Assembly (NCBI GenBank): GCA_937896565.1
Contig: CALBOV010000309.1
Location: forward strand, 1-33,826
Direction: 5' to 3'
DNA length: 33,826 nucleotides
From: an uncultured Salinisphaerales bacterium
Lineage (GTDB): Bacteria; Pseudomonadota; Gammaproteobacteria; Nevskiales; OUC007
Every line of letters begins with the position of its first letter. Within the stretch, counting starts at the first letter, position 1. Of this stretch, positions 27,984 to 32,183 are shown piece by piece. Both the position numbers and the translations under genes were made by a program. The notes under the pieces were generated by a model, which was not told the DNA's origin, ran no database searches, and worked only from the letters and a program-made list of their open reading frames with translations.

Positions 27984-29138
27984 CTACTCGGCGTAACCGA
28001 AACGCGCGGCGGTGGGCCAGGTGATCCGGCTGATCAGGTCGAGTTCGCTGGCTTCGAAGGCCGGTTGGTAGTAGCCCGGCAGCTTCAGTCGCGCCGCGGC
28101 GGCCTCGATGACGGGGTGGTCGATGTCCAGCCCGCAGTGCGTGTAGGCGGACTCCAGCACTGGTTCGGAATCCTTGCAAAGTGCTTCGTAGCGGATGACC
28201 TGACAGGCGTCGCGCAGCGCCGGATTGGCATCGAGCTGGTCGGCCACGGTGCTGTAGACCATGGCCCAGTACTTGGCCCAGCCTTCCACCTCGCGCCCGC
28301 GCGCCCACAGGTCCTGCACTTCAAGAATCGCGTCGTCGTCACCGGTGTGCATCGGCCGCCGGTCCAGGCCGAACTCGAAATGGCCGACGCGGCGCATGTG
28401 GTCCAGCGAGCGTGGATGGGCCTGTTCGCCAGCCTCGAACAGAGTCTGCTGCTTCATCAGCGAGGCGATGTGCCACACCGGATCACGGATGGGCAGCAGA
28501 AATCTGGCGTCTGGAAACAGCTTGAGGATGTATTCCAGGCGCATCAGGTTGTAGTTGCCCTTGGCGACGTAGCGCGCAGCGCCGCGAATGGCCAGCAGCT
28601 TGCGGATGTGCTCGCGGTAGAAGGCCTCGAACGGCGGGTGCCGTGTGCTGTCGTTGAGCACGTTGCTGTGGGCAGGGTTGTGCGTCTCCGGAAAGAACGC
28701 CATCCACAGCACCTCCTCGAAGGCTTCTGGGCTGCGCGAGGTGACGCTGATGCCGTCGCCATGCGCGCGCTCCTTGGCGTCTTCCTTCGGTTCCGGCACG
28801 CGCGACAGCCAGCGATCCCACAGCCAGGGCGTCATCACCGGCGGGAAGTCCCGGTACTGGTGCGTGCCGACATCGGCGTGCTCGGCCAGCAGCTCCAGCA
28901 GGATGGTGGTCCCGGAACGCGCCAGGCCGGCGATGTAGATCGGCGCCTTGATCTCCACGCTGGCGATGGCGTCCTCGGCCATCCGCGTGTCGAAGTTGCC
29001 GAGGCCGATGGCCGACTCGGGATGGTTGTGCTGCCAACCGCTCATCCAGTGCATCCAGGTCGGCACGGCAAAGCTGCCGACGGCGGCCTCGCTGGGTTTG
29101 GATCGGGCGGTGCGTTGGGGTGTATGGATATCGTTCAT
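27984..29138 (-). CDS. PAPS-type sulfotransferase family protein (Sulfotransfer_3-like)
   Basis: A 384-residue cytoplasmic protein with the 5'-phosphosulfate-binding P-loop-like motif IAGLARSGTTILLELLA (residues 69-85) and a 3'-phosphate region FPDARFLLPIRDPVWHIASL (about 209-228) with conserved Arg219, Asp220. The intervening QYRDFPPVMTPWLW and EEVLWMAFFPETHN blocks are shared by a large bacterial group annotated Sulfotransfer_3. The expected reaction is transfer of a sulfuryl group from PAPS to an unknown hydroxyl acceptor. Its ATG overlaps the stop of the upstream membrane protein gene by 4 bp (29135-29138). It is the last gene of the four-gene sulfotransferase operon. Start selected by the overlap; the frame remains open further upstream. 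Confidence 0.85.
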   Translation of the reverse strand: MNDIHTPQRTARSKPSEAAVGSFAVPTWMHWMSGWQHNHPESAIGLGNFDTRMAEDAIASVEIKAPIYIAGLARSGTTILLELLAEHADVGTHQYRDFPPVMTPWLWDRWLSRVPEPKEDAKERAHGDGISVTSRSPEAFEEVLWMAFFPETHNPAHSNVLNDSTRHPPFEAFYREHIRKLLAIRGAARYVAKGNYNLMRLEYILKLFPDARFLLPIRDPVWHIASLMKQQTLFEAGEQAHPRSLDHMRRVGHFEFGLDRRPMHTGDDDAILEVQDLWARGREVEGWAKYWAMVYSTVADQLDANPALRDACQVIRYEALCKDSEPVLESAYTHCGLDIDHPVIEAAAARLKLPGYYQPAFEASELDLISRITWPTAARFGYAE

Positions 29139-29851
29139 TGGATTTTTGCCCAGCGGTACATCAGCAGGGAAACGACGAACATGACGGGCATGAACACGGC
29201 CAGCCAGGATCGGAGCCATTCCGGTCCGAACGGCAGCACATGCCGCTCGGGCAGCGCGATCCACACCTGCTCGACCGGCCCGTCCTCGGGGAGATAGCCC
29301 AGCGGGTTGTCCGCCAGCCAGTGCCACCACGGCCGCTTGGTGACGATGCCTACCGGCGCGGTCATGTCGATCTCGGCGACAACCCGCGAGCCTTCGAGCA
29401 CCAACAGTGAGGCGGGTTGGCTGCCGCCATCCCAGCGGGTCACGGCACCCTCGGGCACGGTGCGCACCGTCGGCGGATCATCCGGCGGCGGCAGGCGATG
29501 GCCGTAATAGGTCTCCGCCCACAGCAGCAGGCTCAGCAGTGGCACGATGGCCAGCAACGTGCCCGGCACGACCAGACCGACATGGCGCAGCGCGGTCGAG
29601 AACTGCTGCTTGATCAGCGGTCCGGCATCGGCGAAGTCCCCGTCGAAGGCGTTCAGCCGCGCCCGCGCCTCACGGGCCTCGGTCTTGGCTTCGGCGATGC
29701 GCGACTGCGGCGACAGCCACTTGTAGAGCAGCATGGTCACGATCGCGGCCAGCCCGGCCCAGATGACCAGGCGCAGCCAGTCGGGCAGCGCGGTGGCCAT
29801 CAGCCGGTCCGCTGTCGAAAAGACCGGAGCCGGCGAGTCGAAGATGCCCAT
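29135..29851 (-). CDS. Integral membrane protein resembling EMC3/TMCO1 (DUF106) architecture
   Basis: A 238-residue protein with three membrane helices at about 26-45, 92-111 and 215-233. A charged helical stretch (QSRIAEAKTEAREARARLNAFD, about 50-70) follows helix 1 and would be cytoplasmic by the positive-inside rule. The segment GPLIKQQFSTALRHVGLVVPG leads into helix 2, then comes a periplasmic domain of about 100 residues (112-212) with strands and several Trp. The helix, coiled coil, helix order and the PLIKQQF-type block recall the archaeal and eukaryotic DUF106/EMC3/TMCO1 relatives of YidC/Oxa1; the large loop before helix 3 is atypical. This resemblance is inferred by eye. A coupled sulfotransferase gene follows. 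Confidence 0.6.
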   Translation of the reverse strand: MGIFDSPAPVFSTADRLMATALPDWLRLVIWAGLAAIVTMLLYKWLSPQSRIAEAKTEAREARARLNAFDGDFADAGPLIKQQFSTALRHVGLVVPGTLLAIVPLLSLLLWAETYYGHRLPPPDDPPTVRTVPEGAVTRWDGGSQPASLLVLEGSRVVAEIDMTAPVGIVTKRPWWHWLADNPLGYLPEDGPVEQVWIALPERHVLPFGPEWLRSWLAVFMPVMFVVSLLMYRWAKIQ

Positions 29852-29875
29852 GGATGACTCCCTTTCGCGGGTGGG

Positions 29876-30196
29876 TCAGGCCGTGCGCCCGGATTCCGGG
29901 CCCTGCGGCTGGCGGACGTCGGCGGCCGGCTCATCCGGTGTCTCGTCCATGGCCTCGGCCTGCTCCGCCTGGGCGGCCAGCCTGCGGCGACGGCGCGCGC
30001 GGCGGATGGGCCACAGCAGTACGAACAGCACGGCGGCGCCCAGCGCGGCGATCAGCCCCCACAGCGCGCCCAACAGGCTCAGTCCGGCGCCGGGTCCGAC
30101 ATAGGCCTGGGCCGCGGCCATCGGGGCGATGCACGCCAGCATCGCCAGCGCGACTTGCAGGCTTCGGTGGTTGGTTTGCTCGGGTTTGTGGTGCAT
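29876..30196 (-). CDS. Small membrane protein with YVGPGAGL motif
   Basis: A 106-residue protein with an N-terminal signal peptide (LQVALAMLACIAPMAAAQA, likely cleavage near residue 31) leaving AYVGPGAGLSLLGALWG at the mature N-terminus. A single membrane helix (about 38-62, LIAALGAAVLFVLLWPIRR) follows, then an Arg-rich patch RRARRRRRL and an acidic, probably disordered cytoplasmic tail. The Y-[VI]-GPGAGL motif recurs in short uncharacterised bacterial membrane proteins. Spacing is 24 bp from the gene downstream and 3 bp from the arylsulfotransferase-type gene upstream (30200), so it is co-transcribed. Function unknown. Confidence 0.7.
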   Translation of the reverse strand: MHHKPEQTNHRSLQVALAMLACIAPMAAAQAYVGPGAGLSLLGALWGLIAALGAAVLFVLLWPIRRARRRRRLAAQAEQAEAMDETPDEPAADVRQPQGPESGRTA

Positions 30197-30199
30197 GGC

Positions 30200-31540
30200 T
30201 TAGCTCCTGGTTGCGGATTGCAGGCGTGCGCGGAATGCCGGTGTCAGTTCGTCCGGCGTCAGGCGCTGTCCGGAGGACACGACGGGAATGAACTGGTCGT
30301 TGTCGCCCCCGCGGACGGGGTTGATGAACTCCCAGACGATCTCGCCGTCCGGCGAGACTTCCAGCAGGCGGCCACCATCGGATTCGGTGATCAGGTAGTT
30401 GCCGTTGGGAAACTTGGTCACGGCCGCGCGCAGCTTGCTTTCCAGCGGCTTGTCGGCGCTGCCCGCGTAGGAGAAAACGGCGCCACCGGTGCTCGGGTCG
30501 ACTTCGAGAATCCGGCTGCGGTCGCCGTCGGTGTAGTGCCCGTAGTTGTCGAACACGGTGAAGTTGCCGTTCGGCCAGGCCTGGATGGAATGCTGGCCAT
30601 GCCAGGGACCCTTGGTGGCCCAGGTCATTTCGCCGGAGTCCAGGTCGATCAGCGCGGGCGCGGCGGGGTGGCGCATCGAGATCAGCACCTGATTGCCCTT
30701 GCCTCGGGCCGGCGCGAAGACCGCTGCGAGCTCGTCGTCGATCAGCTGGATGCTGTTGGTGTGCAGCGGATCTTCCAGCGCGAAATAGGGAATCGCGGTC
30801 AGAATGATCTGGTACTTGGAATCGTAGAACGCATCGAAGACCGAGATTTGCTGTTGCGGCTGCCCGGTCTCGCCATCGATGACGACCACCTGGTCGTCGA
30901 GGAACGGCTTGGCCAGCGAGGAGAAGACCTCGTAGCGGGTATCACGAAAGCCGTGGGTGAGCGCCAGCACACGGCCGTCGGAGCCGAGGTCGAAGTCGTG
31001 ATGCACGGCGCCGTGGTACGACCAGATCACCTCGGAGTCGGCGTTGAGCTTCACCATGCCGTAGCCCCAGGGCGTGTCGGCCGCGGCGATGTAGATCGCG
31101 ATCAGGTCACCATCGGGCTCCATGATGGCCTTGCGCCAGTACATCAGGTCGTCTCGCTGCGCCGGGCGGCCATCGGGCGTGCTGTCCCAGAGTTCGCGGT
31201 ACGGCAGGCTCCAGCGGTGGACCTCCTGGCCGTCCATGTCGATCAGGTGAGCGCTGGTGCTGCCGCCGCGGGTATAGAGGGTGTAGCCCTGATAGGCCTG
31301 GGCCGGGTCATGGATCGTGGTGCCGCGGGCATCGGTGCGCGCCTCGCGCCACTGGTCCGTCTGCACGTAGGAGTTCTCGATCTCGCGCCGGAGCAGTAGC
31401 GCGCGGCCCGCCTTGTAGGCATTGGTCAGCGGTTCGGCCGGGAAGACCTTCGTCAGCATGACCGCCGCCCCGCCGAGGAAGGCGAGGAACAGGCATGCAA
31501 CGAAAAACGCGGCAAAGCCGAGGCGGTCCGAATTGTCCAT
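30200..31540 (-). CDS. Membrane-anchored arylsulfotransferase (ASST) family protein
   Basis: A 446-residue protein with an uncleaved N-terminal helix (about 8-30, FAAFFVACLFLAFLGGAAVML) and a periplasmic beta-propeller-like domain of the Arylsulfotransf_2 type. The propeller repeats are visible as SGEMTWATKGP, TGGAVFSYAGS, DGEIVWEFINP. Candidate active-site residues, by analogy with E. coli-type ASST, are His180-His181 (HHDF), His260 (LHTNS), Arg290-His291 (MRHPA) and His317 (GQHS). Such enzymes move sulfate from one phenolic sulfate to another without PAPS. ATG 31540 has GAGGG about 9 nt upstream, inside a small inverted repeat. It is the first gene of the operon. Confidence 0.85.
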   Translation of the reverse strand: MDNSDRLGFAAFFVACLFLAFLGGAAVMLTKVFPAEPLTNAYKAGRALLLRREIENSYVQTDQWREARTDARGTTIHDPAQAYQGYTLYTRGGSTSAHLIDMDGQEVHRWSLPYRELWDSTPDGRPAQRDDLMYWRKAIMEPDGDLIAIYIAAADTPWGYGMVKLNADSEVIWSYHGAVHHDFDLGSDGRVLALTHGFRDTRYEVFSSLAKPFLDDQVVVIDGETGQPQQQISVFDAFYDSKYQIILTAIPYFALEDPLHTNSIQLIDDELAAVFAPARGKGNQVLISMRHPAAPALIDLDSGEMTWATKGPWHGQHSIQAWPNGNFTVFDNYGHYTDGDRSRILEVDPSTGGAVFSYAGSADKPLESKLRAAVTKFPNGNYLITESDGGRLLEVSPDGEIVWEFINPVRGGDNDQFIPVVSSGQRLTPDELTPAFRARLQSATRS

Positions 31541-31545
31541 GCAGA

Positions 31546-31700
31546 GAACCCTCGTTCTGGGTTCCCCCGCCCGTCGCGGTCCCTGACAGGCCCGCGACGT
31601 CTCCTTGCCTGCTCAGACTCTGCCCGATTTCATTTGGTTCCACGGCGATGTTCACGCCGCGTGGGACGAAGCTTTGGTATTCTCCGCGCCCGCGACGGGC
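31546..31700. promoter_or_regulatory. Inverted-repeat-rich divergent region before the sulfotransferase operon
   Basis: The 205-bp gap between the arylsulfotransferase and phosphatase genes holds several matching arms. GAACCC/GGGTTC (31546-31551, 31559-31564) covers the ribosome site of the leftward gene. GCCCGTCGCGG (31569-31579) can pair with CCGCGACG (31592-31599), or more fully with CCGCGACGGGC (31690-31700). CCACGGCG (31640-31647) pairs with CGCCGCGTGG (31655-31664) with a two-base bulge. The alternatives are mutually exclusive, as in attenuator-like leaders, but high GC makes chance pairing possible. No clear promoter hexamers were found on either strand. Confidence 0.35.
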
Positions 31701-31745
31701 AGCCCGCCGCCCGGTTTGTATGAATCTCCAAGCGCGATCATTTCG

Positions 31746-32183
31746 ATGTTCAACCGTTTTCTTGTTGTCTGCACCGGCAATATCTGCCGAAGCCCCATGG
31801 GCGAATACCTGCTGCGCGAGCGTCTGGCGGACCGGCCGAACGCGGTCGTGGAGTCCGCGGGCATCGGTGCGCTGGTTGGTCACCCGGCCGATCCGCTAGC
31901 GCTGGAGGTGATGCAGGAGAACGGTCTGGATGCCAGCGCGCATCGCGCCCGGCAGATCGACAAGGACATGATCGCCCACTCCGATCTGGTGCTGGTGATG
32001 GACAAGGGCCACCTGCAGTGGATTCACCAGAATTTCCCGATGTCGCGTGGCCGCGTGCACCTGATCGGCCGCTGGCGCAACAACGCCGAGGTGGCCGATC
32101 CGTACCGCCGGCCGCGTGAGGCCTTCGAGCAGGCCTGGCGTGACACGGTGGCGTCCGTGGATGACTGGATGACCAAGGTCTAG
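31746..32183 (+). CDS. Low-molecular-weight protein-tyrosine-phosphatase
   Basis: A 145-residue cytoplasmic phosphatase. The active-site P-loop is [14 protein letters not shown] (nucleophile Cys9, Arg15, Ser16), and the general acid Asp118 is in VADPYRRP. The [14 protein letters not shown] stretch and [18 protein letters not shown] are also standard. The closest named relatives are Wzb/Etp-type enzymes that dephosphorylate the tyrosine kinase of exopolysaccharide export, but no wzc or capsule gene is nearby, so the substrate is open. ATG 31746 gives the standard family start and has no recognisable ribosome site. Divergent from the sulfotransferase operon. Confidence 0.93.

Follow-up and report, generated by a model that had tools for sequence, protein, structure and literature searches.

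A four-gene cassette of two sulfotransferase-type enzymes and two membrane proteins

The window that we analysed is a stretch of 33,826 nucleotides from an uncultured Salinisphaerales bacterium (GenBank assembly GCA_937896565.1, contig CALBOV010000309.1; genome G000 in our set). It carries, on the minus strand, a cassette of four genes in the order ASST-YVG-MB3-STF, which comparative evidence supports well as a functional unit. The gene sizes and the spacings of 3 bp, 24 bp and a 4-bp overlap, read from the open reading frames (ORFs), were exactly those given in a preliminary description of this DNA. The first gene, ASST (30200-31540), encodes a 446-amino-acid (aa) protein of the arylsulfate sulfotransferase type, a six-bladed beta-propeller with an N-terminal membrane anchor. 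It is followed by YVG (29876-30196), encoding a small membrane protein of 106 aa with a YVGPGAGL motif, by MB3 (29135-29851), encoding a 238-aa membrane protein with three transmembrane helices (TMs) and likeness to Oxa1, EMC3 and TMCO1, and by STF (27984-29138), encoding a predicted cytosolic sulfotransferase of 384 aa (Sulfotransfer_3) that depends on 3'-phosphoadenosine 5'-phosphosulfate (PAPS). We placed the start of STF at the ATG at 29138, overlapping the MB3 stop by 4 bp; a longer ORF beginning with GTG (27984-29330) is not needed. A promoter and terminator scan across the cassette gave no signal exceeding that of shuffled sequences.

Active sites of the two enzymes

Both enzymes matched Pfam families over the cut-off, ASST with PF14269 (5.9e-21) and STF with PF13469 (3.9e-20, 73.5 bits against a cut-off of 27), in line with the ASST-type and PAPS-type identities first assigned to them. 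Given that ASST is anchored by an N-terminal helix (residues 3-30) and that STF has no export signal, the latter is predicted to be cytosolic and the former periplasmic, and the two should lie on opposite sides of the inner membrane. The predicted model of ASST had a predicted local distance difference test score (pLDDT) of 89.9, and in the VIA comparison its nearest solved structure was Cpz4 (9kf4/9kf6; Z 32.1), followed by the E. coli ASST (Z 25.8). Aligned with hhalign, residues H260, N262, R290 and H317 fell on His356, Asn358, Arg374 and His436 of AssT from E. coli CFT073 (precursor numbering minus 27), which belong to the published catalytic residues of ASSTs, including the transiently sulfated His436 (PMC13426309). 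All four were invariant in 34 homologs, so the active site looks intact, with these as putative catalytic residues and sulfuryl transfer from an aryl sulfate as the predicted activity. STF likewise keeps its active-site residues and looks intact: R74, G76 and T78 of the PAPS loop (5'-PSB) and R218 and S226 of the 3'-phosphate site were conserved at at least 97% in 54 sequences. With active-site residues invariant or almost invariant in both enzymes, we rejected the alternative, raised in the preliminary description, that the two are catalysts that have lost their activity.

ASST shares with the E. coli CFT073 enzyme the six-bladed propeller and the same catalytic His/Asn/Arg/His set. It differs in being anchored to the membrane N-terminally and in lacking the long N-terminal domain, and its genetic setting is also different, since the genes after E. 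coli assT are dsbL and dsbI rather than one for a PAPS sulfotransferase or MB3. A search of plasmids returned only relatives of less than 43% identity, mostly annotated as aryl-sulfate sulfotransferases. Separately, three ASST-family ORFs were clustered on an 8.6-kb contig without MB3 or STF (L087 1126-6852; G267:C35).

A three-TM membrane protein related to the Oxa1 superfamily

Neither MB3 nor YVG matched a Pfam family over the cut-off. YVG combines a signal-like N-terminus, the YVGPGAGL motif, one further hydrophobic helix and a basic C-terminus, and a homolog of it stands beside nearly every MB3/STF locus. For MB3, the AlphaFold model (pLDDT 90, predicted template modelling score 0.80) placed TM1 at residues 24-46, followed by a cytosolic helical hairpin, TM2 up to about residue 117, a periplasmic beta domain at about 129-198 and TM3 at 216-235. 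When a profile of 48 MB3 homologs was compared with the whole PDB, its best match was MJ0480 (5c8j; E 5.1e-7 over about 120 positions), to which TM3 also matched weakly and collinearly; a profile with 12 rows gave E 0.1. In the VIA structural comparison, TMCO1 in translocon structures (chain identity taken from the titles of the structure entries) held ranks 1 and 2 with Z values of 10.8 and 9.0, while unrelated rows stayed at or below 7.2. Thus, the early guess that MB3 is EMC3-like was upheld by the evidence from both profile and fold.

Based on this profile and structural evidence, we file MB3 as a remote, fold-level member of the Oxa1 superfamily (DUF106/EMC3/TMCO1-type), outside any curated Pfam family. 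YidC (PF02096) was the commonest weak Pfam match among the MB3 homologs (5 of 48, best E 0.013), and EMC3_TMCO1 was not among the Pfam families listed for them; as MB3 lies below the gathering cut-offs of PF02096 and EMC3_TMCO1, it is not filed in those families. YidC is a general insertase with 5 or 6 TMs, whereas MB3 has 3 TMs and was present in 7 of the 274 gammaproteobacterial genomes in our class sample. With the Oxa1 superfamily (archaeal DUF106/Ylp1 MJ0480, EMC3, TMCO1, Get1), MB3 shares TM1, the cytosolic helical hairpin, TM2 and TM3, but it is bacterial, has an inserted beta domain that separates TM2 from TM3, and is linked to a sulfotransferase by its operon and by fusion. DUF106 proteins have been described in archaea as three-TM Oxa1 relatives (PMC8887752), and lipid scrambling via the groove of Oxa1-family proteins has been reported for YidC, Oxa1 and Get1 in vitro and for Emc3 and TMCO1 in simulation (PMC10491306). 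At one locus (L023 10001-10714, identical with L005), an in-frame stop ends MB3 after residue 177 while similarity runs on to residue 238, so that either the gene is broken or the sequence contains an error; its record bears the title Endozoicomonas sp. G2_2, yet the locus resembles Salinisphaera.

Conservation and co-occurrence of the gene set

Among 60 relatives and the window genome, ASST homologs were present in 17 genomes, and YVG, MB3 and STF followed ASST in the same order in nearly all close homologs with sufficient contig. With the MB3 alignment as query, we recovered 45 loci in Gammaproteobacteria, Alphaproteobacteria and one Sumerlaeota genome, which answers positively the earlier question of whether the set is conserved across genomes. 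STF or YVG was near MB3 in nearly all of these loci with a long enough contig, and ASST was present as well in 24 of the 45; the loci without an adjoining ASST ended with the contig, held a protein of the AlkP superfamily in its place, or belonged to genomes with an ASST elsewhere. Across the 274 gammaproteobacterial genomes, the same 7 that carry MB3 also carry a high-scoring ASST (>490 bits), as compared to none of the 267 others. The chance of such co-occurrence is 1/C(274,7) = 5e-14, or 2e-10 when counted by genera, neither value being corrected for phylogeny. In two of the 7 (G144 and G267), the gene order is rearranged with the genes still together.

Searching two further orders with STF only, we found seven genomes, in which YVG adjoined STF in all seven and ASST in six; the contig of the seventh (G445) begins just upstream of YVG. 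MB3 was present in four of them and a different small membrane protein in the other three. A chance neighbourhood was rejected, given that the four genes reappear in this order in other families and classes and that MB3 and ASST co-occur exactly. In two Alphaproteobacteria (L047 and L048), YVG-MB3-STF lies beside genes for dTDP-sugars and polysaccharides, located upstream of YVG, a possible hint at a surface-glycan acceptor.

Gene fusions and an AlkP protein in the place of ASST

Several cassette parts also occur as single proteins. MB3 and STF form one protein of 639 aa in the Sumerlaeota genome (L056), AlkP and MB3 one of 918 aa (L049) and, as judged from an open frame of 1059 aa, probably another (L061), and YVG and AlkP one of about 700 aa in Woeseiaceae-type loci and related metagenome-assembled genomes. 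These fusions tie the parts of the cassette together and, along with the conserved order, imply a physical unit. The AlkP partner (PF01663) replaces ASST between YVG and MB3 in Wenzhouxiangella, Dokdonella, Woeseiaceae and similar genomes, and STF is divergent at such loci. Among 30 MB3 genomes checked, nine had AlkP, and eight of these lacked an ASST homolog; the ninth (G336) has an AlkP cassette plus a second cassette with ASST, STF, YVG and MB3. ASSTs were seen in the 21 AlkP-free genomes. Given this pattern of exclusion, ASST and AlkP look like alternative outside partners of one membrane-STF core. At six AlkP-type loci (L055, L057, L059, L060, L063 and L065), a sulfatase-family protein (PF00884) with TPR repeats is encoded downstream of MB3; in L060, TTLPSH stands where the nucleophile motif CxPSR would be expected, which makes this protein unlikely to be a formylglycine sulfatase.

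In more distant cassettes (G219, G394, G131, G021 and G323), ASST, YVG and STF are accompanied by a different small membrane protein, whose hydrophobic helices are arranged around a cytosolic stretch, as in MB3. This protein is a separate gene in G131 and G323 and is fused to STF in G219, G394 and G021. At the loci L083 (9492-10949), L094 (6394-7908) and L107 (7116-8615), it forms an N-terminal membrane domain of about 130-150 aa on STF, while at L095 and L099 a gene of its own occupies the MB3 slot. An STF-attached membrane module is therefore recurrent even without MB3.

Supply of PAPS

PAPS is made by APS (adenosine 5'-phosphosulfate) kinase, the gene for which adjoins STF or sits near the cassette at 8 loci, including those of Pseudomonas, Stutzerimonas, Chelatococcus and Inquilinus. 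The kinase was found in 34 of 35 cassette genomes, among them the window genome (240 bits), as compared to strong matches in about 160 of the 274 class-sample genomes (a hand count from the listing), an enrichment with a Fisher p of about 1e-6 without phylogenetic correction. The cassette-linked APS kinases of Pseudomonas and Stutzerimonas are fused to a shortened CysN-like N-terminal part (L033 11891-13378, L034 11864-13618, L062 11890-13380). This part seems to lack the typical GTPase motifs, and the Pfam matches at L033 were GTP-eEF1A_C and APS_kinase only.

Surroundings of the cassette

The neighbouring genes in the window are ordinary and, as named from their translations only, encode UvrA, a major facilitator superfamily protein, SSB, a sirtuin-like protein, a low-molecular-weight phosphatase and MiaB. 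The phosphatase-like gene (low-molecular-weight tyrosine phosphatase-like; 31605-32183, plus strand) is divergent from the cassette, as it is in the close relative G002 (L085 1633-2070), and lies outside the gene clusters common to other loci.

A proposed two-step sulfation across the inner membrane

We found no description of the four-gene set in the open literature searched (subscription literature lay outside the search). The preliminary description, which knew no named pathway with this exact set, holds to that extent, but the idea of a sulfuryl relay has a precedent. In caprazamycin biosynthesis, the PAPS-dependent Cpz8 first places the group on a small aromatic carrier, and Cpz4, which works without PAPS, then passes it on to the final acceptor (PMC4257720, PMC6731281). 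Indeed, the Streptomyces system likewise encodes a PAPS sulfotransferase and an ASST together, and the window ASST is structurally nearest to Cpz4. With a PAPS enzyme of its own encoded alongside this Cpz4-like ASST, two-step chemistry of the same kind is the most economical reading. On the other hand, the window cassette lacks a type III polyketide synthase (PKS) or nucleoside-antibiotic genes, and its enzyme pair is joined to two dedicated membrane proteins in Gram-negative bacteria. The cassette may therefore work like caprazamycin sulfation, but without a type III PKS we do not file it as that pathway. A caprazamycin-like carrier made by a type III PKS was considered and rejected, as PF00195 matches were mostly weak and also turned up in controls, E. 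coli and B. subtilis among them.

The best explanation of the whole is, in our estimate with a probability of about 0.5, that the four proteins form one inner-membrane complex for two-step sulfation running from inside to outside. STF, held at the cytosolic face by MB3, would use PAPS to sulfate a lipophilic carrier, probably phenolic or quinol-like; MB3, helped by YVG, would let the polar sulfated head pass the membrane, as superfamily insertases do with lipids; and the anchored periplasmic ASST would take the sulfuryl group onto its active-site histidine and hand it to an acceptor outside. PAPS itself would thus not need to cross the membrane. In some lineages an AlkP-superfamily phosphodiesterase or transferase would fill the ASST position. 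More specifically, the complex would be a dedicated transmembrane sulfuryl-transfer machine, in which a bacterial three-TM protein of the Oxa1 superfamily, recruited from protein insertion, passes a sulfated lipid carrier from STF to the periplasmic ASST, a proposal that we put forward tentatively. The preliminary description had already envisaged a compound made inside and used outside. The fusions bear this out in so far as they link membrane proteins to enzymes, while carrier, transport step, direction and acceptor are points that we infer. We can only guess at a quinol or another phenolic lipid as the carrier, because the window genome has no type III PKS over the cut-off.

Several observations weigh against this explanation. 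Close ASST relatives also stand alone, without YVG, MB3 and STF, and MB3 is consequently the better predictor of the gene set. The small membrane protein of the distant cassettes showed no similarity to MB3 detectable with hhalign (5 sequences). No MB3 member exceeded any Pfam cut-off, and the MB3 model gave no significant match with Foldseek alone; since, in addition, helical proteins can reach middling Z values by chance, the case for the fold rests on the agreement of independent lines, namely the profile hit, the VIA ranks and the weak PF02096 matches. One cassette genome (G121) had no APS kinase match, and its cassette is on a 4.5-kb contig that could be misbinned. A type III PKS, the source of the caprazamycin carrier, was found neither in the cassette nor over the cut-off in the window genome, which is 88.5% complete (best PF00195 match 21 bits, cut-off 27).

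In a rival scaffold account, MB3 and YVG might only anchor STF and ASST or AlkP together, with both enzymes acting on one envelope molecule whose flippase is encoded elsewhere and MB3 moving nothing. The MB3-STF and AlkP-MB3 fusions would fit such simple tethering, as would the distant cassettes, where the MB3 slot is taken by an apparently unrelated small membrane protein that is fused to STF. However, if MB3 were no more than an anchor, it would have no need of an Oxa1-like core with its cytosolic hairpin and its conserved beta domain on the periplasmic side, and we consider this account rather unlikely. The relatives of MB3 are protein insertases (PMC8887752), which raises another option, namely that MB3 serves to insert or hold some membrane or exported protein, that STF adds sulfate to a protein tyrosine ahead of export or in its course, and that ASST or AlkP edits the modification outside. 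Protein-tyrosine sulfotransferases were indeed among the weak PDB matches of STF (E about 1e-4), but this match was confined to common PAPS motifs, the cassette comes with no conserved gene for a candidate substrate protein, and ASSTs act mostly on small phenols and sugars (PMC13426309), making protein sulfation improbable.

Finally, ASST or AlkP might strip or move the sulfate of imported or environmental sulfate esters, with STF working independently on a cytosolic metabolite and only regulation being shared. Such a reverse or remodelling direction would suit the existence of stand-alone ASST paralogs and the fact that characterised ASSTs have typically been assayed with exogenous aryl sulfates, their natural substrates being mostly unknown (PMC13426309). 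We regard it as improbable, however, given the physical unit implied by the conserved order and by the fusions joining membrane part, STF and AlkP.

Implications for sulfation outside the cytoplasm

Taken singly, the parts of the cassette are of known kinds, and the relay has its precedent in caprazamycin biosynthesis. For most bacterial ASSTs, neither the natural substrates nor the roles are known (PMC13426309), and the cassette makes this question directly testable, because the sulfate donor of ASST should be the product of STF. MB3 would give a bacterial three-TM relative of EMC3 and TMCO1 outside general protein insertion, and with it a possible physiological role for the lipid scrambling reported of Oxa1-family proteins. 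Because PAPS carries charge and is produced in the cytosol, sulfating extracytoplasmic material poses a general problem for bacteria, which a relay of this kind would solve. A dedicated transmembrane sulfuryl relay, if true, would be the sulfate counterpart of lipid-linked sugar export.

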